Positions 23,084-41,026 of a stretch of DNA of 64,000 nt are shown in pieces. Under the pieces are notes generated by a model. The model was not told where the DNA came from. It did no database searches and saw only the letters and a list, made by a program, of their open reading frames with translations. Positions within the stretch are counted from its first letter, which is position 1. Every line of letters starts with the position of its first letter. The position numbers were made by a program, and so were the translations under genes. Origin of the DNA: Candidatus Solirubrobacter pratensis (GTDB lineage Bacteria; Actinomycetota; Thermoleophilia; Solirubrobacterales; Solirubrobacteraceae); NCBI RefSeq assembly GCF_000425945.1, contig NZ_AUEK01000006.1, positions 248,001-312,000 on the forward strand, in the 5' to 3' direction.

Positions 23084-23090
23084 GGGCGTG

Positions 23091-23131
23091 ATCCTAAGTC
23101 GCCGCCTGCCGATCTTTACCAAAGCTTTGCC
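23091..23131 (-). promoter_or_regulatory. Promoter and candidate autoregulatory box of the OmpR-type regulator
   Basis: On the minus strand GGCAAAG (23131-23125), four bases, GGTAAAG (23120-23114): direct repeats with an 11-bp period, as bound by OmpR/PhoB-family dimers. TAGGAT (23096-23091) lies 17 bp further, then 7 nt to the GTG. The box therefore takes the -35 position. The GYD gene at 23210 reads the other way from the same region. Confidence 0.55.
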
Positions 23132-23530: not shown

Positions 23531-24015
23531 CCGGTCGCATCAGCCCTGTGTCATGCGCTCGCGCTCCGGCGGGTAGCCGTAGGCGGCCTCGGCGGCGAAC
23601 TGCTCGCGGGTAACGGAGGCGGGTCAGATCGGCGCGCGATCCGCGACCCGCGCGGGGTCTCAGCGCCCCCGGTCTCCGCGCGCCCGCGTCGTCGCGCCGG
23701 CGCACCGAAGCCGCCCCCGGAGACTGCCGTCGGGGCCGCGCTGCTCGCCGAGCTCGCCGGTCGGGACCTCCCAGGCGACCTCGTGCGAGACCCGCTCGGC
23801 CGGGAGGTCGCGGGCCGGCTCGCGGGCCAGCTCCTCGGCCACGCCCGTGGCGGTCAACAGGCCCGGCGCCGGCCCCGCAACCGCGCGGGCGTCGCGGTCT
23901 CGTGGATGGGCGTCTCCCCCGGCCGTGGCACTGGGTCTGCCAGTTGCACGCGCGCGCGTGCCTGCGTCGGGACGGGATCAGGTCGCGTTCACGCGCCGTG
24001 CGCCATCCTGGTTCG
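23531..24015. other. Gene-poor interval with short doubtful frames
   Basis: No convincing gene. On the minus strand a 65-codon frame (23660-23857, starting MTATGVAEELAREPARDLPA and containing VSHEVAWEVPTGELGEQ) has protein-like composition but no family. Between about 23545 and 23620 a second short minus-strand frame ends REQFAAEAAYGYPPERERMT, cut off by a stop just upstream. Both may be remains of a decayed gene. Confidence 0.35.
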
Positions 24016-26163: not shown

Positions 26164-26197
26164 GTTCAGGTCGCGTTCAGGTTGCCGCTGCCACGCT
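26164..26197 (+). promoter_or_regulatory. 11-bp direct-repeat promoter element (site a) before the DedA operon
   Basis: GTTCAGG at 26164-26170 and 26175-26181 (four-base gap). Ten bases later CACGCT (26192-26197) takes the -10 position; the DedA ATG is 8 nt further, so the transcript would be nearly leaderless. The same element occurs at 29888, 31095, 34796 and 41009. Confidence 0.6.
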
Positions 26198-26205
26198 TTC
26201 GGCGG

Positions 26206-26811
26206 ATGACGGCGCACCTCACCAGCTGGATCGCCGACCACGGATTGGTGGCGGTCTTCGTGCTGATGGCCGTGGACGCCGTCCTGCCGGCGGGCGGCGA
26301 GCTGGTGATGCTGTTCGCCGGCGCGCTCGCGGCCGGGGCCATCGCCGGCCACACGGGTCCGACCCTGCCCTCCGCGGTACTCGCGGGGACGCTCGGCTAC
26401 CTGGCCGGCTCGCTTGCGGGCTGGGGCATCGGACGGGCCGGCGGCCGCGCGTTCGTGGAGCGCCGCGGGCGTTGGCTGCACATCGGTCCCGAGCGCTTCG
26501 AGCGCGCCGAGCGCTGGTTCGGCGCGTACGGGTCCGCGTTCGTGCTCGTCGGGCGGCTGACGCCGCTGGTGCGCTCGTTCGTCTCGATCCCCGCCGGCGT
26601 GCTCGAGTACCCGCTGGGCCGCTACATCGTCCTGTCGGCGATCGCCTCGCTGGTCTGGTGCGTCGCGTTCGGCGTGGCCGGCCACGCGCTCGGCTCCAAC
26701 TGGGACCAGGTCCACCACGCCTTCCGCTACGCCGACTACGCCGCGATCGTCGCGGTCGTCGCGCTGGCCGCCGCACTCTTGGTCCGCCGTCGACGCGCGA
26801 GCGGTGCGTAG
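26206..26811 (+). CDS. DedA-family membrane protein
   Basis: 201 residues, about five membrane segments. DedA/SNARE-associated signature: PAGGELVMLFAGALAAG near the N-terminus and FVLVGRLTPLVRSFVSIPAGVLEYPLGRY in the middle, containing the conserved Arg residues. Members flip polyprenyl-phosphate carriers or phospholipids and maintain membrane potential. The ATG at 26206 is chosen over one at 26182 that lies inside the repeat element. It is followed directly (TAG then GTG) by the undecaprenyl-diphosphatase gene, consistent with a shared role in carrier-lipid recycling. Confidence 0.87.
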   Translation: MTAHLTSWIADHGLVAVFVLMAVDAVLPAGGELVMLFAGALAAGAIAGHTGPTLPSAVLAGTLGYLAGSLAGWGIGRAGGRAFVERRGRWLHIGPERFERAERWFGAYGSAFVLVGRLTPLVRSFVSIPAGVLEYPLGRYIVLSAIASLVWCVAFGVAGHALGSNWDQVHHAFRYADYAAIVAVVALAAALLVRRRRASGA

Positions 26812-27681
26812 GTGCATCCGATCTCCTATGCGCAGGCGATCGTGCTCGGCCTGCTCCAGGGTGCGGCCGAGCTGTTTCCGATCTCGAGCCTCGGCCACAG
26901 CGTGATCGCGCCGCGCCTGCTCGGCTGGGACATCCACCAGTCCGACGACTACTTCCTCACATTCCTGGTCGCGACCCACCTGGCGACCGCCCTCGTGCTG
27001 CTCGGGTTCTTCTGGCGCGACTGGGTCAGGATCGTGCGCGGGCTCGGGCGGTCGCTGCGCGATCGCGAGATCGCCGACGGCGACACGGACGCCTACCTCG
27101 GCTGGCTGCTCGTCATCGGCACGATCCCGGCCGGCCTGCTGGGGCTCGCGCTCGAGCACCCGCTGCGCAGCGTCTTCGCCTCGCCCACAGCGGCGGCGGT
27201 GTTCCTGCTCTGCAACGGGCTGATGCTGTTCGGCGCCGAGCGCCTGCGCCGCCACGCCCCGGTGCGCCAGGACGCGCAATTCAGCGACGAGCGGATGGCT
27301 CGTGAGCTCAACGTCCGCAAGGCGATCGGGATCGGCGCCGCACAGGCGCTCGCCCTGCTGCCGGGGTTCTCCCGCTCGGGCGCGACGATGGCGGGCGGCC
27401 TGCTCGCGGGACTCTCCAACGAGGACTCCGCGCGCTTCGCGTTCCTGCTCGCCACGCCCGTGATCGGCGCCGCCGCCCTGCTCAAGCTTCCCGACCTCTT
27501 CGGCCCGCAAGGCGACGGCGTACGCGGTCCCGCGCTCGCCGGCGCCCTGTGCGCCGCGCTCACCGCCTATCTGTCCGTGCGCTTCCTCGTCCGCTTCTTC
27601 GAGACCAACCGCCTCACCCCGTTCGCGATCTACTGCACCGTCGCGGGCGCCCTCTGCCTCCTCGTCTTCGCCATCACATGA
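26812..27681 (+). CDS. uppP: Undecaprenyl-diphosphatase UppP (BacA)
   Basis: 289 residues, multi-pass membrane enzyme that dephosphorylates undecaprenyl diphosphate so the lipid carrier can be reused for wall and glycan export. Both family motifs are present: [16 protein letters not shown] near residue 15 (QG-x2-E-x2-PISS-x2-H) and [14 protein letters not shown] (PGxSRSG). Length is usual. GTG start at the base after the DedA stop; the end overlaps the next gene by 4 nt. Many uppP genes confer bacitracin tolerance. Confidence 0.93.
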
Positions 27682-27911
27682 CCAAGCGCCGCAATCTCAT
27701 CCTTCCCGCCGTGCTCCTCGGCGTCGTGCTGCTCGCACTTGCCATCCTCTACATCGTGGACTCGGCGAGCGCGCTTCCCTCGTTCGTGCCCGGCCATCAA
27801 GCGGGCTCCGGGCACCATCACGTCAAGCACGGAATCGCCGCGTTCCTGCTCGGCCTCGCGTGCTTGGTCTTCGCCTGGTTCCAGACCGGGCCCGCCGCCG
27901 CCAGGCGATGA
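27678..27911 (+). CDS. Small two-segment membrane protein
   Basis: 77 residues: two hydrophobic helices ([21 protein letters not shown] and [18 protein letters not shown]) around a short His-rich loop (GHHHVKHG) that could bind a metal. ATGA overlap with uppP and ATGA overlap with the next gene. No family recognised. Confidence 0.72.
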
Positions 27912-28627
27912 CGTTCCTGCTGGTGGCGCTCGGCGCCGCCGTCGCGGTCGCCGTCGAGCTGCTGGAGGCGCTGGCGATCGTGCTCGCCGTCGGCGTCAGC
28001 CGGCGCTGGTCGGACGCGGCGCTCGGCGCGGCCGCGGCCGTGGTCGCCTGCGCGCTGCTTGCCGGGCTGCTGGGGCCGGTGCTGCTCGCCTCGGTCCCGA
28101 TCGACACGCTGCGGGTGGTGATCGGGGTGCTGTTGCTCCTGTACGGCCTCGAGTGGCTGCGCAAGGGCACCTTGCGGCGCGCCGGGCGCCGGGCGCGCGC
28201 GTCCTCGGTCGCGGAGTACGACGAGACCGTGCACGAGCTCGAGGAAGAGCCGGTCCCTGAGGGGCGGCCGGACTGGCCGGCGCGGCTGGTCGCGTTCAAG
28301 GGCGTCCTGCTCGAGGGCGTCGAGGTCGTGCTGATCGTCAGCGCGCTCGCCACCCGCCCGGGCGGCGCGGCGCCGGCGCTCGTCGGCGCGGGCTTCGCCG
28401 CCGTCGCGGTGCTCGCGGCCGGCGCGTGGCTGCGCAAGCCGCTCGCCCGGCTGCCCGAGACCGAGCTCAAATGGGGCGTGGGCGCGCTGCTCAGCGCGTT
28501 CGGCGTCTTCTTCCTCGCGGAAGGCATGCACGTCCAGTGGCCCGGCGGCGATCTCGCGATCCTCTACGTGCTCGCGGCGCTCGCCGGCGCGAGCCAGCTC
28601 CAGGTGCAGCGGCTGTGCAGGCGCTGA
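27908..28627 (+). CDS. COG4280-like multi-pass membrane protein
   Basis: 239 residues, about six to seven membrane segments with internal two-fold similarity ([19 protein letters not shown] and [19 protein letters not shown]). Each half has an intramembrane Glu in an E-x2-E pattern, as in transporters of the LysE/UPF0016-like fold. The acidic loop [15 protein letters not shown] lies between. I assign it to the COG4280 group from memory; substrate unknown. Coupled by 4-nt overlap to the preceding gene. Confidence 0.65.
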
Positions 28628-28797
28628 AGAAGCTGCTGCTCGGCGAGACGTGGGTGCTGCCGCTCGGGCTCGCCGCGCTGGTGCTGCTCGCGTTCGTCCT
28701 GCGGGACGTGCTGGGCGACGCGTGGCGGCACGCCGGCGGCTTCATCCTGCTCGCCGGCGTGGTCGGGCTGCTGCTCGCCGGCGTCGCCCGCTCCTAG
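28615..28797 (+). CDS. Small two-segment membrane protein
   Basis: 60 residues with GTG start 13 nt inside the end of the previous gene: [13 protein letters not shown] then two hydrophobic helices. Overlap and composition support a real last gene of the DedA-UppP operon. Family unknown. Confidence 0.6.
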
Positions 28798-28799
28798 GC

Positions 28800-28905
28800 C
28801 TGAGCCTCGAACGACGACGGCGGCAATGCCGATGATCGCGATCGACAGCGCGAACGCGAGGGATCGCCGGCCAGTAGAACGCCTCCCGTCGCGTGGCGAT
28901 CACAT
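28800..28905 (-). pseudogene. Possible frameshifted relic of a small membrane protein
   Basis: Minus strand just after the COG4705 stop: a frame reading VIATRREAFYWPAI breaks at about 28861, and in the next frame LAFALSIAIIGIAAVVVRG follows. TRREAFYW is also found in COG4705 proteins (TTRREAFYWLTI in the gene at 34861), so this may be a fragment of a third copy. Short and uncertain. Confidence 0.25.
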
Positions 28906-28922
28906 GCCGGCCGGCCGCATAC

Positions 28923-29753
28923 TCAGCTCTCGGCCGGCTGGGCCTCCACGCCGAGCTTGCGGCCCATGTGCGGCGCCGGGCGGCGGTCCTGGATGTCGCG
29001 CTTGGTCACCGCGGCGTACGCCACGAGCGCGATGAACGCCACGAGCGCGATCGCGCTGACGGTGCCGTCGCCCAGCCCGAGGCCGGTCTGCGGATGCGGC
29101 TTGCCGAACCAGTCGGCGAACGACGCGCCGAGCGGGCGGGTGATCACATACGCGGCCCAGAACGCGACGATCGGGTTCAGCCTCCCGCGCCACCAGGCCA
29201 GCGCCGGGATCGCGATCAGCGCGCCGAACAGCACGGCCGAGCCGAAGAAGCCGAGGTTGAGCGTCATCGCCGTCATGTCGCCGGCCGCCGTCCCGAGCGC
29301 GAACGTCGCAAGCACGGCACACCAGTAGTAGGTCTCCCGCCGGCGGGTCGTGATGCTGTGGATCGACAGCGTGCCCTCGCTGCGATGCCACCGCCAGAAG
29401 ATCACCGCGACGACCGCCGCGAAGAACGGCGTCGTGACGGCGTAGGACAGGCCGGCGCCGTCCTTGACGCCGTCGGCGGCCATCGTGCCGAAGACCGCGA
29501 CCATCATCACCGCGAACCAGTAGACCGGTGCGCGGTACTCGGTCGCCCGCAGCTGCAGCCGCAGCGCGTACCAGATCCCCACCACGCCGATCAGGCCGGC
29601 GATCGGGACGCTCTTCTGGCCCAGGAAGTCCGACATGGCCTCGCCCATGCCGGTGGTCAGCACCTTGATCACCCAGAACAGCAGCGTGATCTCGGGTACC
29701 TTCGCCGCCAGGGGCTCTCGGGGCCCGCGGGACCGGGCGGTTGACCGCACCAT
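28923..29753 (-). CDS. COG4705 membrane protein
   Basis: 276 residues, about eight membrane segments. It belongs to the COG4705 uncharacterised membrane-anchored proteins: KVPEITLLFWVIKVLTTGMGEA, GTLSIHSITTRRRETYYWCAVLATFALGTAAGD, YVITRPLGASFADW. The conserved Glu, Asp and Arg within segments suggest transport. AAAGGA lies 8 nt before the ATG at 29753. Paralogue of the C-terminal half of the gene at 34861. Confidence 0.85.
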   Translation of the reverse strand: MVRSTARSRGPREPLAAKVPEITLLFWVIKVLTTGMGEAMSDFLGQKSVPIAGLIGVVGIWYALRLQLRATEYRAPVYWFAVMMVAVFGTMAADGVKDGAGLSYAVTTPFFAAVVAVIFWRWHRSEGTLSIHSITTRRRETYYWCAVLATFALGTAAGDMTAMTLNLGFFGSAVLFGALIAIPALAWWRGRLNPIVAFWAAYVITRPLGASFADWFGKPHPQTGLGLGDGTVSAIALVAFIALVAYAAVTKRDIQDRRPAPHMGRKLGVEAQPAES

Positions 29754-30068
29754 GGCGAATCCTTTCGTCTCAACGGCGCGCGCCGTCAGTTGCCGGTTCG
29801 TCACGGCGAGGGTCCCCCCGCCGCAGCCGAAGACGGTGGCCGCCGGGTCTGAGTCCGGCATTAGATCGGGGGCCTTTGGCGAGAGCTGTTCAGGGTCCCG
29901 TCAGGTTCTCGATGCACGCGTCACGAGGCCACCCGCTGAAACGGCGCGGTAATGGAAGCGAGGCGCCGAAACGACCGCGGCGCGCGGGGGTGCGCGACGT
30001 TCCTTCGAGCTACCGCGCAGTTGACGTCCGCCGCGAGAGCGAGGGGCCGCCGTAGGGACCCTCGGCCC
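29754..30068. other. Intergenic region with direct-repeat element (site b)
   Basis: No gene supported. It holds GTTCAGG (29888-29894) and CGTCAGG (29899-29905), the same 11-bp repeat as the other sites, with ACGCGT at the -10 position. The element points to the plus strand, away from the COG4705 gene whose start is 135 bp away, and no plus-strand gene follows before 31228. Confidence 0.45.
29888..29905 (+). promoter_or_regulatory. 11-bp direct-repeat element (site b)
   Basis: GTTCAGG-N4-CGTCAGG. Identical geometry to sites a, c, d and e, but without a recognisable gene at the expected distance. It may control the divergent COG4705 gene or an undetected small RNA. Confidence 0.45.
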
Positions 30069-31010
30069 TCAGCAGCCGGCGCGCCGGAGACCGAGCTCAG
30101 CGGCGACCGCCGGGAGCCCGAGCACGATCGCGGTCGCCAGCTCGGCCGCCTGCAGCAGCAGCCCGTAGGACAGCCCGAGCCCGGAGCCGACGCCCGCGAC
30201 GGCGAGCACGCCGATGCACGCGGCCTGGAAGATGCCGATGTTCGACGGGGTCAGCGGGACGGCGGCGGTGACGTTGACCGCCACCAGGATCGCCGCGGCG
30301 GTCGCGAGCGGCGCCGGGACGTGCACGTCGAGCGCGCGCAGCAGCGCGTACGCGGCGAGCGCCTGCAGGCCCCAGGCGGTCAGCTGGAGCGTCGTGATCG
30401 CCACCCCGCGTCGCAGCGGGCGGAACACCGAGAGGCCCTTGCGCACGGAGGCGAGCTGCCGCGCGACGAAGCCCCGGGGCGCAAGCCGCGCGCCGGCGAG
30501 GACGGCGACCACCGCCGCCGCCGGCCAGCCCACGGCGAGCAGCGTGGCGGTCCGCCCGCCGATCGCGAACCCGCCCGGGAGCGCCACGAGCGCGAGCATG
30601 ACCAGCGCGACGAGATTCAGGATCGTCTGCGTGACGAGCGTGCCGACGACGGTCGCGAGCCGCTCGCGCCGCGCGAGGCCGCGCGCGATCACCCACGCCC
30701 GCAGCGGCTCGCCGACGCGGCCGGGAGCCACGGCCGAGCCGAGCACACCGATCATCGTCGCGCGGACCACGCGGCCCGCGCCGATCCGCTCGGCCGGAAG
30801 CGCCGCGTGCAGCATGCCCGTCCAGGCGAGCGCCCGCATCAGCATCGCCGCGGAGTTGAGCGCGAGCGCGGCGAGGACCCACCCGGGCGTCGCGGCGGCG
30901 AGCGCGCTGAGATCGAGCCGCCGGCACGCCACCACCGTCGCCGCGAGCGCGGCGGTCGTCGCGAGGGCGTATCCGACCCGCCGGCCGGTCAGCGTGAACG
31001 TGCGCGCCAC
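30069..31010 (-). CDS. Flippase-like membrane protein (UPF0104/AglD, LPG-synthase membrane-domain type)
   Basis: 313 residues, about eight membrane segments. Signatures of the lysylphosphatidylglycerol synthase/UPF0104 membrane domain: ALAWTGMLHAALP, VVRATMIGVLGSAVAPGRVGEPLRAWV, AAVPLTPSNIGIFQAACIGVL. No synthase domain is attached, so it is a stand-alone lipid or glycolipid translocase candidate. The GTG at 31010 lies inside the end of a 27-codon hydrophobic ORF (30989-31072), implying coupled translation. It is controlled by the repeat element at 31095-31112. Confidence 0.8.
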   Translation of the reverse strand: MARTFTLTGRRVGYALATTAALAATVVACRRLDLSALAAATPGWVLAALALNSAAMLMRALAWTGMLHAALPAERIGAGRVVRATMIGVLGSAVAPGRVGEPLRAWVIARGLARRERLATVVGTLVTQTILNLVALVMLALVALPGGFAIGGRTATLLAVGWPAAAVVAVLAGARLAPRGFVARQLASVRKGLSVFRPLRRGVAITTLQLTAWGLQALAAYALLRALDVHVPAPLATAAAILVAVNVTAAVPLTPSNIGIFQAACIGVLAVAGVGSGLGLSYGLLLQAAELATAIVLGLPAVAAELGLRRAGC

Positions 31011-31072
31011 CAGAACTCGATCAGGATCACCACCACGAGGGCGAACAGCACGGCGCCCGGGTCGATGGGCAT
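30989..31072 (-). CDS. Leaderless mini-ORF encoding a single-span membrane peptide
   Basis: 27 residues: MPIDPGAV, then a hydrophobic helix (LFALVVVILIEFWW), then RARSR. Its ATG is exactly 6 nt after the TACAAC -10 box, so the mRNA would start at or near this ATG. The stop lies 22 nt inside the flippase-like gene. Could be a real small membrane protein or a translational leader. Confidence 0.5.
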   Translation of the reverse strand: MPIDPGAVLFALVVVILIEFWWRARSR

Positions 31073-31078
31073 ATGAAC

Positions 31079-31112
31079 GTTGTACGCCTGCGCGCCTGAC
31101 GACATCCTGAAC
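31079..31112 (-). promoter_or_regulatory. 11-bp direct-repeat promoter (site c) of the flippase-like gene
   Basis: Minus strand: GTTCAGG (31112-31106), N4, CGTCAGG (31101-31095), N10, TACAAC (31084-31079), 6 nt, ATG. Same spacing base for base as site e. Confidence 0.65.
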
Positions 31113-31122
31113 GAGAGCCCGG

Positions 31123-31179
31123 GCTGATCTGCTCCCGCGTACGACTCGAGTCGTACGCGCCGGCGCGCCGAAGATCAGC
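31123..31179. promoter_or_regulatory. Long palindrome between divergent genes
   Basis: A perfect 24-bp palindrome spans 31136-31159 (centre GACTCGAGTC). It is enclosed by an outer inverted repeat GCTGATCT (31123-31130) and AGATCAGC (31172-31179), with a 10-bp palindrome CGGCGCGCCG between. The flanking genes are divergent, so it is not a terminator; an operator for the ABC exporter operon at 31228 is the simplest reading. Confidence 0.5.
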
Positions 31180-31213
31180 CTCGCGGGCGTTGCCCGCGAC
31201 GGCACCCGGCGCC

Positions 31214-31219
31214 TAGCTT
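31214..31219 (+). promoter_or_regulatory. TAGCTT -10 element of the ABC exporter operon
   Basis: TAGCTT 8 nt before the ATG at 31228, suggesting a leaderless transcript. Similar boxes precede other genes here (TAGGAT at 23091, TAGCTT at 48793, TAGGCT at 61211). Confidence 0.45.
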
Positions 31220-31227
31220 GCCTGGCG

Positions 31228-32133
31228 ATGATCCAAGCCAGCGAACTGACGAAGCGCTACGGCGCGAAGACGGCCGTGGACGAGCTGTCGTTCACGGTGC
31301 AGCCGGGCGTCGTGACGGGCTTCCTCGGCCCCAACGGGGCCGGGAAGTCGACCACGATGCGCATGATCCTCGGGCTGGACGCTCCGTCCGCAGGCGAGGT
31401 CACCGTCAACGGCCGCCGCTATCGCGACCTGCCCGCGCCGTTGCATCAGGTCGGCGCGCTGCTCGAGGCACGCTCGATCCACACGGGCCGCTCGGCGGCC
31501 AACCACCTCCTGGCGCTCGCCCAGACGCACGGGATCCCGCGCCGGCGGGTCGAGGAGGTGATCGACCTCGTCGGGCTGCGGTCGGTCGCGCGCAAGCGGG
31601 CGGGCACGTTCTCGCTCGGGATGGGCCAGCGGCTCGGGATCGCGTCGGCGCTGCTCGGCGACCCCGCCACCGTCGTGCTCGACGAGCCGGTCAACGGGCT
31701 CGATCCGGAGGGCATCCACTGGATCCGCAACCTGCTGCGCGGACTGGCGGCCGAGGGGCGCACCGTCTTCGTCTCGTCGCACCTGATGAGCGAGATGGCG
31801 CTGACCGCGGACCACCTGATCGTCGTCGGGCGGGGCCGCCTGCTCGCCGACATGACGACCGGCGAGTTCATCGCCCAGGCCTCGCCCGCGCTGGTCCGCG
31901 TCCGCTCCCCCCATGCGACGCGGCTGCGCGAGCTGCTGCTCGGCGACGGCGTGACGGTCCGCAGCGACGGGCCCGGCATCCTCGAGGTGGGAGGGCTGGC
32001 GATCGAGGAGATCGGCGACCGCGCCGCCACCGAAGGCCTGACGCTGCATGAGCTCTCGGCCCACCAGGCGTCACTGGAGGCCGCGTTCATGGAGATGACA
32101 CGCGACGCCGTCGAGTACGAGGCCGCGGCATGA
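31228..32133 (+). CDS. ABC exporter ATP-binding protein
   Basis: 301 residues. Walker A GPNGAGKST (about 34-42), signature FSLGMGQRLGIA, Walker B TVVLDEPVNGLD, H-loop FVSSHLMSEM. The group is DrrA/BcrA-like, with a ~80-residue C-terminal extension. With the permease at 32130 it forms an exporter, possibly for an antibiotic or lipid. The whole four-gene run (ATPase, permease, kinase, regulator) is linked by 4-nt overlaps, the arrangement of antibiotic-sensing export modules. Confidence 0.9.
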   Translation: MIQASELTKRYGAKTAVDELSFTVQPGVVTGFLGPNGAGKSTTMRMILGLDAPSAGEVTVNGRRYRDLPAPLHQVGALLEARSIHTGRSAANHLLALAQTHGIPRRRVEEVIDLVGLRSVARKRAGTFSLGMGQRLGIASALLGDPATVVLDEPVNGLDPEGIHWIRNLLRGLAAEGRTVFVSSHLMSEMALTADHLIVVGRGRLLADMTTGEFIAQASPALVRVRSPHATRLRELLLGDGVTVRSDGPGILEVGGLAIEEIGDRAATEGLTLHELSAHQASLEAAFMEMTRDAVEYEAAA

Positions 32134-32906
32134 GCGCGGTCACGCAACCTCGGGTCGTGCTCTCGGAGTGGACCAAGCTGCGCTCGCTGCGCTCCAGCCG
32201 CCTCTCGCTGATCGTCGCGGTCGGCCTCGTCATCGGCCTCGGCCTGCTGATCCCGTTCGTGAGCGTGAGCAACTGGGCCGCCGGCACTCCGACCGCGGGC
32301 TACAACGCCGTCGAGCGCAGCCTCGGCGGCATCTACCTCGCCCAGCTCGCCTTCGGCGTGCTCGGCGTGATGCTCGTCACCGGCGAGTACTCGACCGGCA
32401 TGATCCGCGCGACGTTCACGGCCGTCCCGCGCCGCCTGCCGGTGCTGTGGGCCAAGCTCGCGGTGTTCCTGGCGGTGACGCTCGCGCTCGGCACGATCTC
32501 CTGCGTCGTCGCGTTCCTCGGCGGCCAGGCGATCTTCGCGAGCAAGCACGTCGACGCCTCCTTCGGCGATCCGCACGTCGCCCGCGCGGTGCTCGGCGCC
32601 GGGCTGTTCCTCGCGGCGATCGGCGCGCTCGGCGTCGCCATCGGCGCGCTGCTGCGCAACACGGCGGCGGCGATCGCCACGCTGACCGGGCTGCTGTTCG
32701 TGCTGCCGGTGATCGTCCAGGTGCTCCCCCGCTCCTGGTCGGACGCGATCGGCCCGTACCTCCCCGGCGACGCCGGCACGGCGATCATCGCGATGCACCC
32801 GGACCCGCACCAGCTCGCGCCGTGGACCGGGCTCGGCGTGCTGTGCGTCTACGCTGCCGTCGCGACGATGCTCGCCACCGTCATGCTGGTCCGACGCGAC
32901 GTGTGA
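32130..32906 (+). CDS. ABC-2 type exporter permease
   Basis: 258 residues, six membrane segments. N-terminal SEWTKLRSLRSSRLSL is typical of ABC-2 permeases next to BcrA-like ATPases, and VTGEYSTGMIRATFTAVPRR is the conserved cytoplasmic coupling loop. ATGA overlap upstream and GTGA overlap downstream. Confidence 0.87.
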   Translation: MSAVTQPRVVLSEWTKLRSLRSSRLSLIVAVGLVIGLGLLIPFVSVSNWAAGTPTAGYNAVERSLGGIYLAQLAFGVLGVMLVTGEYSTGMIRATFTAVPRRLPVLWAKLAVFLAVTLALGTISCVVAFLGGQAIFASKHVDASFGDPHVARAVLGAGLFLAAIGALGVAIGALLRNTAAAIATLTGLLFVLPVIVQVLPRSWSDAIGPYLPGDAGTAIIAMHPDPHQLAPWTGLGVLCVYAAVATMLATVMLVRRDV

Positions 32907-34030: not shown

Positions 34031-34698
34031 GCATCGCCGTGCTGCTCGCCGACGACCAGCCGCTGCTGCGGATGGGCTTCCGCATGATCCTCGACGCCCA
34101 GCCCGACATGACCGTCGCCGGCGAGGCGGCGGACGGAGACGAGGCGGTCGAGCGCGCCGCCGCGCTGGCGCCCGACGTCGTGCTGATGGACGTTCGCATG
34201 CCGGGCACCGACGGGATCGAGGCAACGCGCAGGATCGTCGCGTCCGGGAGCCGCACGCGGGTGCTGATCCTGACCACGTTCGACCTCGACGAGTACGCGT
34301 TCGCGGGGCTGCGCGCCGGCGCCGGCGGCTTCCTGCTCAAGGACGCCCCGCCGGACGACCTGCTGTCCGGGATCCGCGCCGTCGCCGCCGGCGACGCCGT
34401 CGTCGCGCCGAGCGTCACCCGCCGGTTGCTCGACGCCTACGCGCACCGGCTGCCCGACGGGCACGCGCCGGCGACGCGCGCGGCGCGGCTGGACCCGCTG
34501 ACCGAGCGCGAGCGCGAGGTCCTGCTCGCCGTGGCGGGCGGCCTCTCCAACGCGGAGATCGCCGCCCGCCTCGTGGTCTCCGAGGCCACCGTGAAGACGC
34601 ACGTCGGCCGGATCCTCACCAAGCTCGGTCTGCGCGACCGCGTCCAGGCGGTGATCCTCGCCTACGAGACCGGGCTCGTGCAGGCCTCGCAGCGCTAG
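34027..34698 (+). CDS. NarL/LuxR-family response regulator
   Basis: 223 residues. Receiver with D9-D10, phospho-acceptor D55 (VVLMDVRMPG), Lys in FLLKDAPP; C-terminal LuxR helix-turn-helix (LTEREREVLLAVAGGLSNAE, ATVKTHVGRILTKLGLRDRV). Last gene of the exporter operon and probably its regulator, acting at the 31.1-31.2 kb region. Confidence 0.93.
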   Translation: MSIAVLLADDQPLLRMGFRMILDAQPDMTVAGEAADGDEAVERAAALAPDVVLMDVRMPGTDGIEATRRIVASGSRTRVLILTTFDLDEYAFAGLRAGAGGFLLKDAPPDDLLSGIRAVAAGDAVVAPSVTRRLLDAYAHRLPDGHAPATRAARLDPLTEREREVLLAVAGGLSNAEIAARLVVSEATVKTHVGRILTKLGLRDRVQAVILAYETGLVQASQR

Positions 34699-34795
34699 TC
34701 GCGAGGACGACGCGTTCTCGGAGAAGACGCCGCGCGTGCTCGGGCCGACGCCGGTCTCGGCGAGCGTCTTGGGATCGTTGCGTTCCGGGTGGGCC

Positions 34796-34829
34796 GTTCA
34801 GGAATCGATCAGGCGCTCTGCACGACGCT
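34796..34829 (+). promoter_or_regulatory. 11-bp direct-repeat promoter element (site d)
   Basis: GTTCAGG (34796-34802), N4, GATCAGG (34807-34813), N10, GACGCT (34824-34829). It lies upstream of the UspA-COG4705/glycosyltransferase pair whose ATG is at 34861. Confidence 0.55.
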
Positions 34830-34860
34830 GCTGTGGCCAGTCGTCCACCCAGGATTGCCA

Positions 34861-36102
34861 ATGACCGATCCCATCAGCGTTCTCGTCGTCACCGACCGGA
34901 TCGCCGTCTCACCTGAGCTGCTCGGCGCGATCCGGGAGCGCGCGGCCCGCGCCCCGATCCAGGTGCGCCTGCTCGTGCCGAACCCCGCACCGGCCGAGTG
35001 GCACCCGACGCACCCCGAGCGCCACATGAAGGCGGAGGCCGCTCGCGGCGTGCTCGGGAAGACCCTGCCGGCGCTGCAGGAGGCCGCCGGCGTGCCGGTC
35101 GAAGGGTTCGTCTCGACGCGGCACGACCCGATCGACGCGATCGAGGAGATCCTCCATGACGAGCAGATCGACGAGCTGATCGTCGCGACGACGCCCCATC
35201 ACATCGAGGGGTGGCTGCACGTCGACGTGCCCCATCGCGCCGCTCATCTCGGACTTCCCGTGACGGCGATCGCCGGGACACACGCGCTGGAGATCGTCGA
35301 CCCGCGTGCGCGCCCGCGGATCGGTCCGACGCTCGGCCGCCGGATGCTGAACAAGGTGCCGGAGGTGACCCTCTACTTCTGGGTGATCAAGATCATGTGC
35401 ACGACCGTCGGGGAGACCGCGGCGGACTACCTGAACATGAACCTCGGGTTCGGGCTGACCAACACGACCTACGTCGCCGGTGCGCTGCTGATCGCCCTGC
35501 TGGCCGCGCAGTTGCGCGCCGACCGCTACATCCCCGGCCTGTACTGGTCGGTCGTCGTGGTGATCTCGGTGTTCGGCACGCTGATCACCGACAACATGAC
35601 CGACGGTTACAACGTGCCGCTCACCACCAGCACGGGACTCTTCGGCGTGGTCCTGGCGATCGTGTTCGCGATCTGGTGGGGCGTCGAGCGCACGCTGTCG
35701 ATCCACACGATCTTCACGACCCGCCGCGAGGCGTTCTATTGGCTCACGATCCTCTTCACGTTCGCGCTCGGCACCGCCGCCGGCGACCTCGTCGCCGAGA
35801 AGCTGAGCCTCGGCTACGGCGTCTCGATCGCCATCTTCGGTGGCATCATCGCCCTCATCACCGTCGCCCACTTCATGCTCGAGCTCAACGCCGTGCTGTC
35901 GTTCTGGCTCGTCTACATCCTGACGCGGCCGCTCGGGGCCTCGATCGGCGACTTCATGTCCCAGCACAGCAAGAAGTACGGCGGCCTGGGCCTCGGTACG
36001 ACCGGCACGAGCTACATCTTCCTCGGCTGCATCCTCGCGCTCGTGGTGTACCTCACGGTGACCCGCCGCGACGCGACCGAGCTGCAACCTGAGCCGACCT
36101 GA
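34861..36102 (+). CDS. UspA-like domain fused to COG4705 membrane protein
   Basis: 413 residues. Residues 1-140 form a universal-stress-protein-like alpha/beta domain (ISVLVVTDRIAVSPELLGAI; IDELIVATTPHHIEGWLHVD; HLGLPVTAI) without the G-x2-G-x9-G(S/T) ATP signature. Residues ~155-405 are a complete COG4705 domain (NKVPEVTLYFWVIKIMCTTVGE; TTRREAFYWLTILFTFALGTAAGD; YILTRPLGASIGDF), the same family as 28923-29753. The soluble domain probably regulates or senses for the membrane domain. AGGA lies 7 nt before the ATG. The glycosyltransferase gene follows after 3 nt. Confidence 0.83.
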   Translation: MTDPISVLVVTDRIAVSPELLGAIRERAARAPIQVRLLVPNPAPAEWHPTHPERHMKAEAARGVLGKTLPALQEAAGVPVEGFVSTRHDPIDAIEEILHDEQIDELIVATTPHHIEGWLHVDVPHRAAHLGLPVTAIAGTHALEIVDPRARPRIGPTLGRRMLNKVPEVTLYFWVIKIMCTTVGETAADYLNMNLGFGLTNTTYVAGALLIALLAAQLRADRYIPGLYWSVVVVISVFGTLITDNMTDGYNVPLTTSTGLFGVVLAIVFAIWWGVERTLSIHTIFTTRREAFYWLTILFTFALGTAAGDLVAEKLSLGYGVSIAIFGGIIALITVAHFMLELNAVLSFWLVYILTRPLGASIGDFMSQHSKKYGGLGLGTTGTSYIFLGCILALVVYLTVTRRDATELQPEPT

Positions 36103-36105
36103 GCG

Positions 36106-37170
36106 ATGCCGCGGGCGCTGATCCTGTCGGCCGACATCGGCGCCGGGCACGACCTGCCGGCGGAGCTGCTCGCGCACGCCTTGCGCGAGCGCTCCGCCGA
36201 GGCGGTGATCGCGGACGGGCTGTCGGAGATGGGCCGCCTCACGCACGTGCTCGGGCGCCGGGGGGTCGAGACGATCCTGCGCGGCGCGCCGTGGGTGTTC
36301 GACGCCCAGTACTGGCTGATCCAGCGCTTCGCGCCGACACGGCGGCTTGCGGCCGCGGCGCTCGAGCGGATCGGCCGCGACGGCCTGCTGCGCCTGATCG
36401 CGCGCGAGCGGCCGGACGTGATCGTGTCGACCTACCCGGGCACGACCGAGGTGCTCGGCCGCCTGCGCGGGGCCGGGCGGGTGACGGTGCCGTGCGTCGC
36501 GGCGATCACCGACCTGGCGGCGCTGCGCTACTGGGCGCACCCGGGCATCGACATGCACCTGACGATCCACGCCGAGTCGCGCGCCGAGGTCCAGGCGATC
36601 GCCGGGCCGCACGCTGAGATCCGCCACGTGCGCGGGTTCTCGCGGCCCGAGTTCGACGACCCCCCGGCGCGGGCGCAGGCGCGGGCGGCGCTCGGCCTGG
36701 CGCCTGGCCCGCTGGCGCTGATCTCGGGCGGCGGCTGGGGCGTGGGCGACCTCCGCCGCGCGGCGCGGGCGGCGCTCGCGGCCGGCGCGACGCCGGTCTG
36801 CCTGTGCGGCACCAACGACGCGCTGCGCGCTCGGCTGCAGCGCGACGGCATCCGCACCGAGGGCTTCACCACGAGGATCTGCGAGTGGATCGCCGCCGCC
36901 GACGTGCTCGTGCACTCGACCGCCGGACTGACGGTCCTGGAGGCCGAGCTGTGCGGAACCTGGGCGATCTCCTACGGCTGGGGCTTCGGCCACATCCGCA
37001 TCAACAACGAGGCCTACCGCCGCTTCGCGCTCGCCGCCGTCGCGACGACCCCGGAGCTGCTCGAGACCGAGCTGCGCCGCGCGCTCGCCTTCCCGCGCCG
37101 GCGACCGCAGAACGGCACGGCGCTGCCCACGGCCGCCGACGCGGTGCTCGAGCTGGTCAATGGGCGATGA
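36106..37170 (+). CDS. MGDG-synthase/MurG-like glycosyltransferase (GT28 type)
   Basis: 354 residues, GT-B fold. The N-terminus LILSADIGAGHDLPAELLAHAL is the lipid-acceptor motif of monogalactosyldiacylglycerol synthases and MurG relatives. The C-terminal donor site reads LISGGGWGVGDL, CEWIAAADVLVHSTAGLTVLEAELCG. Likely makes a membrane glycolipid on the cytoplasmic face; the sugar donor is unknown. It follows the UspA-COG4705 gene by 3 nt and shares its repeat-element promoter, which would fit glycolipid-for-phospholipid exchange. Its 3' end overlaps the convergent transporter gene by 14 nt. Confidence 0.82.
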   Translation: MPRALILSADIGAGHDLPAELLAHALRERSAEAVIADGLSEMGRLTHVLGRRGVETILRGAPWVFDAQYWLIQRFAPTRRLAAAALERIGRDGLLRLIARERPDVIVSTYPGTTEVLGRLRGAGRVTVPCVAAITDLAALRYWAHPGIDMHLTIHAESRAEVQAIAGPHAEIRHVRGFSRPEFDDPPARAQARAALGLAPGPLALISGGGWGVGDLRRAARAALAAGATPVCLCGTNDALRARLQRDGIRTEGFTTRICEWIAAADVLVHSTAGLTVLEAELCGTWAISYGWGFGHIRINNEAYRRFALAAVATTPELLETELRRALAFPRRRPQNGTALPTAADAVLELVNGR

Positions 37171-37960
37171 GCCGGCGCACCGGCGCGGCGGCGCCGAGCT
37201 GCAGCGAGGCGCCCACCACGAGCGCGAGGCCGGCGATGATCGCCACCGGGTGGCTCCAGCGCTCGCCGGTGACCGTGGGGGCGAGCAGCACCGGCACGGC
37301 GGTCTGCAGCGCGAACGCGCCGGCGGCGACGCGCGCCGCGCCGCTGCGCTGGAGCGCCGCCATCTCGTCGGCGAGCGCGAGGCCCGCCACCGCGGCCGTC
37401 GGCAACGCCCAGACCAGGCCGCTCTCGGTCAGCAGCTTGCTCCCGAGCCCCGACGCCGCGTAGCCGCAGCCGGCGGCGGCGACAAGCGCCCAGCCCGGCA
37501 GCCGGCCGCCCCTCAGCCACGGCACGGCGGCGATCGCCGCCAGCCCGCCGACCGCGAGCGCCGCCGCGCCGGCGTCGGCGGAGCGCTCCGCGGGCGCCGT
37601 CCAAGCCAGCAGCGCCAGCCCGGCGACGATCGTCCCAACCGCCGCGAAGTCGCGCGCGCGGACCGGCTCATGGAGCAGCCGCGCGCCCAGCACGAGCAGG
37701 AGCACGAGCCCGATCGCCAGCGCGGGCTGCACGACGGTCAACGGGGCGATCGCCAGCGCGGCGATCTGCAGCGGCCAGCCGGCGATCGCGAGCCCGGTGG
37801 CCGCAAGCCAGCGCGGCCGCCGGAGCAGCTGCGTGAGCCGCGCCGGCGAGCTGTCCGGCAGCGCCCGCGCCTCCAGCGCCTGCAGCGCGACCGCGCCGTC
37901 GAAGCAGCACGCCGCCGCGGCGCCCAGTGCGATCCCACCCGCGACGGCGCCCGCGCTCAT
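37157..37960 (-). CDS. DMT-superfamily (EamA/NIPA-like) transporter
   Basis: 267 residues, about nine hydrophobic segments with two-fold repeat (WPLQIAALAIAPLTVVQPALAIGLVLLLVLG). The ALAIAPLTVVQP segment resembles the NIPA/DMT group. Substrate unknown. Divergent from the CE4 gene with 17 bp between start codons. Confidence 0.75.
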   Translation of the reverse strand: MSAGAVAGGIALGAAAACCFDGAVALQALEARALPDSSPARLTQLLRRPRWLAATGLAIAGWPLQIAALAIAPLTVVQPALAIGLVLLLVLGARLLHEPVRARDFAAVGTIVAGLALLAWTAPAERSADAGAAALAVGGLAAIAAVPWLRGGRLPGWALVAAAGCGYAASGLGSKLLTESGLVWALPTAAVAGLALADEMAALQRSGAARVAAGAFALQTAVPVLLAPTVTGERWSHPVAIIAGLALVVGASLQLGAAAPVRRLIAH

Positions 37961-37977
37961 GGCGTCATGATCCCCGG

Positions 37978-38655
37978 ATGCGGGCGATCCTGACGGCCGC
38001 CGCCGCGGGCTGGGCGCTCCCCGCGCTCGCGCCGGTGTCGCCGCGCCTCGCCGCGGCGCTCGCCATCCCGCGCCGGCTCGACGTCCCCGGCGTGGCGCTG
38101 ACCTTCGACGACGGCCCGCATCCCGAGGGCACGCCGGCGATCCTGGACGTGCTCGACGCCGCCGGGGCGAAGGCGACCTTCTTCATGGTCGGCGAGCGTG
38201 TGCTCGCGGCGCCGGACGTCGCGGCGGAGGTCGCCGCGCGCGGCCACGCGATCGCGCTCCACGGCCACCGGCATCGCAACCTCCTGCGCCTCGCGCCCGC
38301 GGCGATCGCGCGCGACCTCGAAACCGGGCGGCAGGCGGTCGCGACCGCCACCGGCGTCGACCCGGTGCTGCACCGTCCGCCGTACGGCATCTACTCCTGG
38401 CCGGCGCTGCGGCTCGTCCGCGCGCGCGGCTGGACGCCGCTGCTGTGGTCGCGCTGGGGCCACGACTGGCGCCGCCGGACGACGGCGGCGAAGATCGCGG
38501 CCGAGGTCACCGAGGACCTGCGCGCGGGCGACGTGCTGCTGCTGCACGACGCCGACGACTACAGCGCCGCCGGGAGCTGGCGCCGCACGGCGGCCGCCCT
38601 GCCGCGCGTGCTGGAGGCGATCGCGGCAGCCGGCCTGGAGGTTCAGGGGCGGTAG
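37978..38655 (+). CDS. Polysaccharide deacetylase (CE4, NodB domain)
   Basis: 225 residues. NodB motifs: TFDDGPHPEG with catalytic D44 and metal ligand D45; metal ligands H95 and H99 in ALHGHRHRNL; RPPYG (motif 3); LLLHDAD (motif 5). N-terminal hydrophobic stretch may anchor or export it. Such enzymes deacetylate peptidoglycan or exported N-acetyl-hexosamine glycans, or act on polyprenyl-linked sugars. It converges on the aminotransferase gene with a 13-bp overlap. Confidence 0.88.
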   Translation: MRAILTAAAAGWALPALAPVSPRLAAALAIPRRLDVPGVALTFDDGPHPEGTPAILDVLDAAGAKATFFMVGERVLAAPDVAAEVAARGHAIALHGHRHRNLLRLAPAAIARDLETGRQAVATATGVDPVLHRPPYGIYSWPALRLVRARGWTPLLWSRWGHDWRRRTTAAKIAAEVTEDLRAGDVLLLHDADDYSAAGSWRRTAAALPRVLEAIAAAGLEVQGR

Positions 38656-39620
38656 TAGAGCGGCACGCACCAGTGGTTCTCGGCGACCCAGTCGGCGTTC
38701 GGCAGCACCGCGTGGGAGCCCATGATGCGATGGCACGGCACGTCGTAGACCTTGCCCGTGGAGCGCTCGACCGGGTCGAAGACGATGTACTTGTAGAGCC
38801 CGGAGACCATTCCTTCCGGCAGCTCGAGCCGTCCCGGGTGCGCCGGATCGAGATGGCGCCGTGCGGCGGCGTTCTTCCACGCGACGATCTCCTCCATCCG
38901 CTCGGTCTGGACGACGCCGAGCGCCGCCGTGAACTCGCTCAGGCGGAAGTTCAGGCCGGCGACCTCGTGCTCGGGCTTGCCGTAGTTGCGGAAGGCGCGC
39001 GCGAACGCGAGCAGCTCGGGGTCGCGCGCCACGAGCATCCCGCCCTCGCCCGTCGAGACCGTCTTGGTCGCGTAGAACGACCACGCGCCGGCGTCGCCAT
39101 AGGTCCCCGGCCGGCGCCCGTTCCACGAGGCGCCGTGCGCATGCGCGCAGTCCTCGAGCAGGAAGATGCCCTCGGCGCGGCAGAGCTCGGCGATCCGCTC
39201 GGCGTCGAACGCGATGTGGCCGCCGATGTGCACGAGGATCACGGCGCGCGGGCGATGCTCGGCCACCGCCGCCTCCAGCGAGGCGAACGACATGCACAGG
39301 TCCTCGCGGTTGCAGTCGACGAACTCGACGCGCGCGCCCGCGTGCACCGCCGCCAGCGGCGTCGCCATGAAGGTGTTGGACGGCACGAGCACCGTTTCCC
39401 CCCGGACGCCCGCGAACTCCAGCGCCGCCAGCGCCGCGCCGGTCCAGCCCCCGAACGCGACCGATCCGATCCCGTTCCAGGCCGACCACGCCTCCTCGAA
39501 GCGCGCCGTCAGCGTCCCTTCCGACCAGCGCTGCGACGCGATCGCCTCGTCCCAGAGCGCGTGCAGGCGCTGGCGGTCGCGCTCGTCGAACCCGATCGCG
39601 AAGCGATCGAGCTCCGGCAT
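38643..39620 (-). CDS. DegT/DnrJ/EryC1/StrS aminotransferase
   Basis: 325 residues, PLP-dependent sugar aminotransferase fold. K186 in FYATKTVSTGEGGML is the PLP lysine; EDCAHAHGA holds the cofactor Asp and the family's His; FRNYGK and NFRLSEFTAALG are typical. Acts on nucleotide-linked keto-sugars. The ATG at 39620 overlaps the epimerase stop by one base (TGATG); another in-frame ATG lies at 39635. It pairs with the epimerase in making a modified sugar. Confidence 0.88.
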   Translation of the reverse strand: MPELDRFAIGFDERDRQRLHALWDEAIASQRWSEGTLTARFEEAWSAWNGIGSVAFGGWTGAALAALEFAGVRGETVLVPSNTFMATPLAAVHAGARVEFVDCNREDLCMSFASLEAAVAEHRPRAVILVHIGGHIAFDAERIAELCRAEGIFLLEDCAHAHGASWNGRRPGTYGDAGAWSFYATKTVSTGEGGMLVARDPELLAFARAFRNYGKPEHEVAGLNFRLSEFTAALGVVQTERMEEIVAWKNAAARRHLDPAHPGRLELPEGMVSGLYKYIVFDPVERSTGKVYDVPCHRIMGSHAVLPNADWVAENHWCVPLYYRP

Positions 39621-40927
39621 CACTCGTTCAGCCATGCCGGCAGCGCGCGCGGGAGCGTCGTGAGGCGGGCGGCGACGCCCGCGGAGAGGGCGAGCAGCAC
39701 CAGCAGCGTCGCGTGCCCGTGGCGCAGGTGGTGGAGCTCATCCGGCCATGGGAGGAGCGCGATCGCGAGGCACGCGCCCGCGGCCGTGGTCAACCCGGCG
39801 CTGATCTGCCGGCCCGCGGGTCCGTCCCACTCGAACCCGCCGGCCAGCACGAGCGGCAGCATCAGCAGCAGCGCGCCGACGAAGGTGCCGTAGATGTTCA
39901 TGTCGGAGTCGATCGGCGCAAGCGTCGCGAGGCCGACGATCACGACCGCCGTCAGCAGCGCGCCGGCCAGCGACAGCGCCGCGCGGCGGGCGAGCGCGCC
40001 GATCACGCGCGGCGGCTCGGAGCGGACCGGCACGGCGGCGCGATGCCAGTCGACGTAGCGGCGCACGCCTTCGGCGAACGTCGTCGTCGCGGTCCATCCG
40101 AGCTCCTGCGCGGCGCGCGCGCCGCTCACCGGCGCGCCCGCGAAGTCGCCCGTCCGGCCGGGTCCGTGGACGATCTCGACCTCGCCGACGGCGTCGCGGA
40201 CCGCCAGGGCGATCTCCTTGACCGTGGTGTCCTCGCTCCCCACGAGGTTGTACGTCCGGTTCGCCGCCACCGGCGCCAGCGCGCGCACGACGCCGTCGGC
40301 CAGGTCCTCGACATAGACGAATCGGCGCGACTGCAGGCCGTCGCCCGCGATCGTGAGCGGCTCACCGGCGAGCGCCCGCGCGGTGAACGCCGGGACGACG
40401 GCCGCCGGCCGCGCGCGCGGACCGTAGGGGATGCCGAAGCGCAGGATCGTGTGCTCGAGGCCATACAGCTGGCCGTACGAATGGCAGTAGAGCTCGCCTG
40501 CCAGCTTGGTCGCCGTGTAGAGGTGCGCCGGCGGGTGCAGCGGCAGCGACTCCTCGTGACACTCGGCGGGCGTGTCTGAGTAGGTCCAGATCGTCGAGGC
40601 GTAGACGACGCGCGAGACGCCCGTGCGCCGCGCCGCCTCCAGCACCTGCAGCGTGCCGCGCGCGTTGCGCCGCTCGGCCTCGACCGGATCGGCCAGCACC
40701 TCGTTGACGTCCGCCGCGGCGGCGAGGTGGATCACCGCCTCGCAGCCGGCCATCGCCTCGCTCAGGCGTTCGAGCTCGCTCAGGTCGCCGAGCACCGCAT
40801 CCACGTCGGGATGCCATGGTGACGGCCGCAGGTCGTAGATCCGGGGCTGGTCTCGCGCGGCGAGCAGGCGGTCCACGACGTGCGACCCGATGAACCCCGA
40901 GCCGCCGGTGACGAGGACCCTCGTCAC
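39620..40927 (-). CDS. NAD-dependent epimerase fused to C-terminal membrane domain
   Basis: 435 residues. Residues 1-310 are an extended SDR nucleotide-sugar epimerase/dehydratase: VTGGSGFIGSH (NAD site), HLAAAADVNE, active-site Y-x3-K in YTATKLAGE. Residues ~320-430 add four hydrophobic helices (LAGALLTAVVIVGLATLAP; ALLLMLPLVLAGGFEW; ATLLVLLALSAGVAARL), which ordinary epimerases lack. The membrane part may tether sugar synthesis to glycan assembly. The GTG at 40927 overlaps a 20-residue leaderless ORF. Confidence 0.85.
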   Translation of the reverse strand: MTRVLVTGGSGFIGSHVVDRLLAARDQPRIYDLRPSPWHPDVDAVLGDLSELERLSEAMAGCEAVIHLAAAADVNEVLADPVEAERRNARGTLQVLEAARRTGVSRVVYASTIWTYSDTPAECHEESLPLHPPAHLYTATKLAGELYCHSYGQLYGLEHTILRFGIPYGPRARPAAVVPAFTARALAGEPLTIAGDGLQSRRFVYVEDLADGVVRALAPVAANRTYNLVGSEDTTVKEIALAVRDAVGEVEIVHGPGRTGDFAGAPVSGARAAQELGWTATTTFAEGVRRYVDWHRAAVPVRSEPPRVIGALARRAALSLAGALLTAVVIVGLATLAPIDSDMNIYGTFVGALLLMLPLVLAGGFEWDGPAGRQISAGLTTAAGACLAIALLPWPDELHHLRHGHATLLVLLALSAGVAARLTTLPRALPAWLNE

Positions 40928-40986
40928 GTGCGACCCCGCGGCCGGCGAGGCCGGCCGCGCTCGACTACGCCCACGTCGGTCGTCAT
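40924..40986 (-). CDS. Leaderless 20-residue leader ORF before the epimerase
   Basis: Starts MTTDVGVVERG and ends in an Arg/Pro-rich tail. Its ATG is 6 nt after the TACAAC -10 box of site e, and its TGA overlaps the epimerase GTG (GTGA). Probably a translational leader that lets a leaderless mRNA express a gene with no ribosome site. Confidence 0.45.
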   Translation of the reverse strand: MTTDVGVVERGRPRRPRGRT

Positions 40987-40992
40987 AGAGCC

Positions 40993-41026
40993 GTTGTACG
41001 CGCCGCTGCCTGACTGCTTCCTGAAC
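40993..41026 (-). promoter_or_regulatory. 11-bp direct-repeat promoter (site e) of the epimerase operon
   Basis: Minus strand: GTTCAGG (41026-41020), N4, AGTCAGG (41015-41009), N10, TACAAC (40998-40993), 6 nt, ATG. Geometry identical to site c. Confidence 0.65.

Follow-up and report, generated by a model that had tools for sequence, protein, structure and literature searches.

We analysed a 64,000-nucleotide (nt) stretch of the Candidatus Solirubrobacter pratensis genome (contig NZ_AUEK01000006.1, positions 248,001 to 312,000; hereafter the window), in which a direct-repeat box, GTTCAGG-N4-NNTCAGG, occurs exactly five times. They mark a genuine regulon that is conserved and, in general terms, of a known kind; its likely regulator is encoded outside the window, and its distinctive promoter layout can be searched for. 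As a whole, the boxes are probably best explained as operators of an OmpR/PhoB-family response regulator, here called RR2, acting with its kinase. Support for this reading lies at the level of sequence and comes from the box itself, its frequent fixed register, its enrichment at RR2 genes, its recurrence at orthologous promoters and a recurrent actinobacterial target set.

The box and its copies

The five matches start at 26164 (+), 29888 (+), 31112 (-), 34796 (+) and 41026 (-), with the coordinates and strands claimed in an earlier note on this DNA and with no further exact match in the window. A degenerate sixth site lies upstream of them.

Degenerate box GATCAGGTCGCGTTCACG, 23976..23993, + strand: two mismatches; GATCAGG-N4-GTTCACG, N10, CATCCT, GTG at 24016
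Box 1, 26164..26181, + strand: N10, CACGCT (26192-26197), ATG at 26206
Box 2, 29888..29905, + strand: 26 bp from a DUF347 gene
Box 3, 31095..31112, - strand: N10, TACAAC (31084-31079), ATG at 31072
Box 4, 34796..34813, + strand: N10, GACGCT (34824-34829), ATG at 34861 (offset 47)
Box 5, 41009..41026, - strand: N10, TACAAC (40998-40993), ATG at 40986

As the earlier note had described, four of the five boxes point into a gene start, the exception being box 2, which faces away from the adjoining DUF347 gene, and the hexamers TACAAC (boxes 3 and 5), CACGCT (box 1) and GACGCT (box 4) stand exactly 10 bp downstream. Absent from that note are three further features: an ATG located 22-24 nt downstream of three of the boxes (26206, the start of a DedA gene; 31072 and 40986, the starts of open reading frames (ORFs) of 27 and 20 amino acids (aa)), the two small ORFs themselves, and the degenerate site at 23976. 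At this last site a GTG at offset 22 starts a Kelch ORF (a probable lipoprotein), with the same spacing as at the strong sites.

The pattern gave no match in 100 dinucleotide shuffles of the window. A weight matrix built from the five boxes themselves scored these at 24-28 and the next match in the window at 15. Scanning the whole genome (6.64 Mb), as had been proposed, yielded six exact copies, five of them within one 14.9-kb stretch and the sixth 39 bp before the RR2 gene; a reversed control pattern had none. With the gap varied (GTTCAGG N0-20 TCAGG) we obtained 21 genome matches, six with the spacing seen in the boxes and 15 spread across the 20 remaining gap lengths, and with one mismatch allowed 23 matches, 17 of them in addition to the exact copies, against 5 for the control. 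Judged by its sequence layout, a pair of direct repeats spaced by 11 bp in the place of a -35 element, the box is an operator of the OmpR/PhoB type, and the earlier proposal of such repeats read by such a regulator holds to that extent. An Rfam scan of the window gave no match at the gathering threshold. Separately, one genome of the same family (G018, contigs C17 and C163) carries GTTCAGG-N8-TCAGG nine times and once with N9, either a relative with 13-bp spacing or an unrelated repeat.

A fixed register downstream of the box

To describe the promoter layout we used 108 distinct exact box sites from the collected loci; genes outside annotated records were mostly called by an in-house codon score, with approximate starts. 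The strict layout, box-N10-NANNNT-N3-9-ATG, was present at 28 of the 108 sites, at none on the opposite side and at 0.12% of random positions. A relaxed form was present at 47 sites, at one on the opposite side and at 0.97% of random positions. The ATG stood 22 or 23 nt after the box at 31 sites, while offsets 21, 24 and 25 accounted for four each and every other offset up to 49 for at most four. An ATG lay at offset 19-27 in 46 sites, 35 of which had A at position 11 and 31 T at position 15. The layout is as would be expected of a class-II OmpR-type promoter whose mRNA is leaderless, and we infer the leaderless start from the spacing between the -10 element and the ATG. In a class-wide draw of 399 genomes, the strict pattern with -10 and ATG was found in 25 (11 of this family, 14 of other families), and its reversed control in none.

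The earlier note would have given up the motif had it been as frequent in coding sequence as in promoters. We found 74 of the 108 exact sites outside genes, 19 inside a gene near its start and 15 deeper inside; the corresponding figures for random positions in the same loci were 23%, 16% and 61%.

Might the copies be a dispersed repeat or chance matches rather than operators? Some copies in Solirubrobacter soli do lie near contig ends and in duplicated genes. At boxed promoters, however, the spacers vary between recurrent half-sites, a recurrent -10-like A and T and a recurrent ATG, the window shuffles contained no box, and neither identical flanks nor random-like placement was seen. We rejected a mobile repeat because the box flanks differ, and give the whole alternative next to no credence.

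RR2 is the candidate regulator

RR2 is an OmpR-family response regulator encoded elsewhere in the same genome (C10:138163-138831; L069:8164-8835). The sixth box (C10:138106) precedes its gene, and a kinase gene and an FTR1-family gene follow downstream. Its domains, Response_reg (90.5 bits) and Trans_reg_C (75.6 bits), place it in the OmpR/PhoB family. A 6-aa ORF begins at the first ATG after the -10 element, and its stop overlaps the start of RR2, an arrangement also present at the epimerase gene of the window. A paralogue of RR2 (C21:16676) lies in a cluster of Usp-like, RR2, kinase and DUF347 genes with two degenerate boxes.

We searched 146 genomes of the family for RR2, scoring 20 candidates per genome, so that misses are possible. 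A distinct group at 198 bits or more was present in 36 genomes, the next match reaching 171. Exact boxes occurred in 55 genomes. RR2 and box were found together in 26 genomes, RR2 only in 10, the box only in 29 and neither in 81 (Fisher p 2.2e-6), and the RR2 genomes hold 66 of the 108 exact box matches. RR2 is likewise associated with DUF347 (both 22, RR2 only 14, DUF347 only 20; p 2.9e-6).

From the 36 RR2 genomes we then took 30 RR2 loci fetched by protein alone. A box scoring at least 16 lay within 315 bp around the RR2 start in 13 of the 30, compared with 1.75% of 1,200 control segments taken from these loci, the matrix having been trained partly on boxes in such loci. This test supersedes an earlier comparison at score 16 (RR2 24/54, other OmpR-type regulators 10/35, random segments 6.4%), which was biased because many of its loci had been fetched for carrying a box. 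Nine of the 30 short loci have a DedA, UppP, DUF347 or FTR1 relative beside RR2. Alignment of 44 kinases adjoining RR2, at least one of them in the wrong frame at its start, gave the sensor-part consensus pdd..lD...WVf (capitals at least 70%, small letters at least 45%). As side observations, an identical 11-aa ORF, MESHSIAQPPS, stands right after the -10 element of the box promoter in L204, L205 and L207 (L234, L240, L272); longer named loci with this ORF have an RR2-type gene (52-54%) downstream, and the ORF is a possible leader peptide.

A two-component pair encoded in the window itself would be the nearest alternative:

Response regulator RR1, OmpR family, 22430..23122, - strand: no box upstream
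Sensor kinase HK1, partner of RR1, 21189..22505, - strand: Pfam

RR1 is only 3 kb from the first strong box, and RR1-like genes adjoin both the Usp-like DUF347 gene and RR2 in S. soli (L062:2960, L061:6451). Apart from its boxless upstream region, RR1 is disfavoured by its distribution: RR1-like genes are present in all seven genomes of the genus, five of which have neither an exact box nor DUF347. In those five, even the best matches reach no more than 54-56% identity and could represent paralogues. Outside the genus, the neighbour of boxes and targets is RR2, not RR1, and the recognition-helix region differs between the two proteins. We consider RR1/HK1 an unlikely regulator of the boxes.

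The earlier note had suggested a PHO-type response, with a PhoP homologue binding the boxes under phosphate limitation and remodelling membrane lipids. The PHO box has the same direct-repeat geometry (7+4), its half-site GTTCACC shares the core GTTCA (PMC4415409), the window encodes an MGDG-type transferase, and a phosphoesterase-family gene is boxed in S. soli. The upstream regions of pst genes, where the motif was expected, speak otherwise: at five pstS loci in four genus genomes we found no box, the best score being 11.0 in one and none reaching 9 in the other four, and no pst gene was identified among the boxed genes. PhoB is still the best NCBIfam model for RR2; the score of 165.9 nevertheless falls short of the equivalog cut-off of 296.2 (TIGR02154), as do those for PmrA (NF007928; 145.9 against 330) and the heavy-metal regulators CzcR/SilR/CopR (TIGR01387; 149.7 against 279.2). 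The boxless pstS loci and the PhoB shortfall led us to reject the PHO reading, which we regard as very improbable. Of the single regulator posited behind the boxes, the OmpR/PhoB type has found a candidate; the PhoP homologue has not gained support, and the best candidate, RR2, lies outside the window.

Boxes at orthologous promoters and in other genera

Within the genus (seven genomes), both exact boxes and DUF347 occur only in the genome studied here and in its sister species S. soli DSM 22325 (G137); RR2 is present in these two and in G135. S. soli carries five boxes at promoters orthologous to those of the window, the conservation that the earlier note had made a test of its motif:

DedA gene, L055:10180
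Small ORF, L055:8859
Usp-like DUF347 gene (UspDUF347), L054:14627 and L062:1665
Epimerase gene, L056:7870

In S. soli the MGDG-type gene (L054:6000) also has a box upstream, as has an extra DedA copy (L176:7525), there with one mismatch; a second epimerase copy has a weaker box (score 16.0). Directly under the box lies a hydrophobic ORF of 27-30 aa (M.IDPGAV) in both the window (30989-31072) and S. soli (L055:8899), and a pattern search with at most one mismatch matched it only in these two among the 146 family genomes. Because the flippase gene near the small ORF is encoded on the other strand in S. soli, the target common to both species is the ORF and not the flippase. The S. soli boxes L057:4973 and L056:9942 precede proteins of the Phosphoesterase family (PF04185); the PF04185 scan covered L057, and L056 is a look-alike.

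From named genomes 81 stretches were reported, and we read 80 loci. In 13 of these the layout is immediately followed by a DUF347 ORF (Modestobacter, Nocardioides, Actinoallomurus, Actinomadura, Frankiales, metagenome-assembled genomes of Solirubrobacterales, and S. soli), and 14 of the 80 hold RR2 at 51% identity or more. Two Streptomyces plasmids have the layout before DUF347 with 11/12 and 10/12 half-site matches and RR2-type genes of 52% and 56%; one of them reads AGTCAGG-N4-GTTCAGG-N10-CACGGT-N8-ATG, with the 52% gene nearby.

Other box matches were noted in passing. Eight Pseudomonas loci (L226, L238, L247, L273, L275, L276, L289, L293) have an identical GTTCAGGGGGAGTTCAGG before a distant OmpR-type regulator; at these GTTCAGG-N4-GTTCAGG loci the regulator is only 35-36% identical to RR2. 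Many other proteobacterial matches, without related genes, are probably due to chance. In L155, L157, L160, L163, L185 and L186, from other genera, the box precedes a probable lipoprotein of about 200-225 aa and then an ATP-binding cassette (ABC) ATPase, at times with a protein of about 900 aa too; at L185 and L186 the box and RR2 are divergent. In L066, L072 and L140, from three genomes of a single genus, the box stands before a similar operon encoding a protein of about 110-120 aa, for which Pfam gave no hit, then one of about 326 aa, and in two of them also one of about 195 aa.

Genes beside the window boxes

The gene families beside the boxes bear out the envelope and glycan target set of the earlier note:

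DedA/VTT-domain protein (UptA-like), 26206..26811, + strand: Pfam VTT_dom; predicted leaderless start
UppP/BacA undecaprenyl-diphosphatase, 26812..27681, + strand: Pfam BacA, 240.3 bits
DUF347 (COG4705) membrane protein with four repeats, 28923..29861, - strand: Pfam
LPG_synthase_TM flippase-like protein, 30069..31010, - strand: Pfam on 30069-31001; candidate GTG start at 31010
Hydrophobic small ORF of 27 aa, MPIDPGAVLFALVVVILIEFWWRARSR, 30989..31072, - strand: under box 3; its end overlaps the flippase ORF start
N-terminal extension fused to DUF347 (UspDUF347), 34861..36102, + strand: extension without a Pfam hit
MGDG-synthase-type glycosyltransferase, 36106..37170, + strand: Pfam MGDG_synth; has its own box in S. 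soli
DegT/DnrJ/EryC1 aminotransferase, 38643..39635, - strand: Pfam
NAD-dependent epimerase/dehydratase, 39620..40927, - strand: Pfam
ORF of 20 aa, MTTDVGVVERGRPRRPRGRT, 40924..40986, - strand: its stop overlaps the epimerase start (GTGA)

The DedA protein passed the VTT_dom cut-off (67 against 33.9) and stayed below that of its best NCBIfam model, UptA (109.5 against 250). The UppP/BacA protein exceeded the BacA gathering score of 33.4, and its best NCBIfam model gave 363.7 against a cut-off of 394. Both window DUF347 proteins have four PF03988 repeats (159.8 and 208.5 bits), which identifies them as family members. For the gene earlier called UspA-COG4705, Pfam confirmed the DUF347 part and gave no UspA hit in the N-terminal extension. 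The flippase-like gene had been named as a target; box 3 is indeed there, and the first gene after 31112 is the small ORF rather than the flippase. At box 4 the ATG at offset 47 leads us to predict a short mRNA leader. Further Pfam families in the window are polysaccharide deacetylase, Kelch and YncE-like. A P-type cation ATPase encoded at 52432-55155 is 81% identical to the product of a gene near a boxed cluster in the family genome G011 (L064:3246).

DUF347 and lipid-carrier genes

UptA-type DedA proteins, like the UppP/PAP2 phosphatases, act on the undecaprenyl lipid carrier. We read ten plasmid loci with DUF347, two from Streptomyces and eight from other genera. Among them, DUF347 occurs with DedA or UppP/PAP2, mostly with two-component genes too, in loci of at least five phyla. 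DedA, UppP or PAP2 genes accompany it on plasmids of Deinococcus, Cryobacterium, Azospirillum, Priestia and Brasilonema, all of which, except the Deinococcus stretch, also carry two-component genes. The Bradyrhizobium locus has PAP2, an iron exporter and ChrB; FTR1 is present in the Azospirillum and Priestia loci; and DedA, UppP and PAP2 are absent from the stretches of Hymenobacter and Rhizobium tropici. None of the eight non-Streptomyces loci (Deinococcus, Cryobacterium, Rhizobium, Bradyrhizobium, Azospirillum, Priestia, Hymenobacter, Brasilonema) has an 11/12 or 12/12 box match anywhere, and only three have a 9-10/12 match upstream, so the gene set reaches further than the box does.

In Frankia, paralogous operons with UppP and DUF347 are among the genes up-regulated by lead, and metal export has been proposed (PMC4531530). 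Because of this lead induction and the plasmid gene neighbours we take the signal to be metal or antimicrobial/lipid-carrier stress, which is a guess.

A model of the circuit

In the circuit that we propose, a phosphorylated RR2 dimer would bind both 11-bp repeats in place of a -35 element and contact RNA polymerase beside the -10. Transcription would begin on the ATG or beside it, so that the mRNAs of many targets would be leaderless, and RR2 would regulate itself. An extracellular, partly conserved acidic patch probably lets the kinase sense envelope or metal stress. Among the targets, DedA, UppP and PAP2 would recycle the C55 lipid carrier, the MGDG-type transferase, epimerase, aminotransferase and flippase may alter surface glycans and glycolipids, and DUF347 would move a substrate.

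Several observations count against this model. Only box 1 fits the strict layout in the window: boxes 3 and 5 depart from it by their TACAAC and box 4 by its ATG offset, while box 2, besides its orientation, has no -10 element or ATG in register on its own strand. Among the 108 exact sites, 80 miss the strict form and 61 the relaxed one. The 6-aa ORF before RR2 means that not every target starts directly. The 29 genomes with an exact box and no detected RR2 (some boxes being inside predicted genes, e.g. L032, L042, L048, L049) and the ten RR2 genomes without an exact box do not fit a simple pairing, and among the 30 RR2 loci 17 lack a box of score 16 or more (14 reach 15.5). The signal is itself conjecture.

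With RR2 as the favoured regulator, a stress circuit in a poorly studied class gains an operator together with a promoter layout and a candidate for its control. DUF347, a widespread family without an assigned function, becomes tied to lipid-carrier recycling genes by shared control and neighbourhood. The promoter layout of box, 10 bp, NANNNT, about 6 nt and ATG is specific enough to be used in searching further actinobacterial genomes for members of the regulon, and it makes tests of the circuit straightforward.

Comparison with known systems

No published description of this circuit was found in the literature searched, which was judged largely by title and abstract opening. Lipid-II-cycle antibiotic responses (BceRS, SigM) resemble it in combining UppP/BcrC-type phosphatases and ABC exporters under envelope stress, and differ in regulators, boxes and targets. 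The lead-induced operons have the same two families, UppP and DUF347, together under metal stress, and the part of that report consulted here gives no regulator or box for them (PMC4531530). The PHO box of PhoP/PhoB (GTTCACC in S. coelicolor) likewise consists of two 7-nt direct repeats with 4-nt gaps read by an OmpR/PhoB-type regulator (PMC4415409). Here, in contrast, the half-site is GTTCAGG, the tested pstS loci are boxless, RR2 is below the PhoB cut-off and a predicted leaderless register is frequent.

PmrAB is a metal-responsive, lipid-remodelling two-component system to which, alongside ColRS, the RR2 circuit may be likened. Both share with the RR2 circuit a two-component pair with acidic sensor residues, and surface-lipid and aminosugar enzymes (for ColRS, PMC8306577). 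RR2 differs from both in a gene set built on DUF347, DedA and UppP, and its PmrA score is less than half the cut-off. To our knowledge, the actinobacterial host, unlike those of PmrAB and ColRS, has no lipid A. We tentatively suggest, as a possibility well short of an even chance, that RR2 and its kinase are an actinobacterial counterpart of PmrAB/ColRS that protects undecaprenyl-phosphate, with DUF347 as the core transporter and the 27-30-aa protein as a dedicated Solirubrobacter part.

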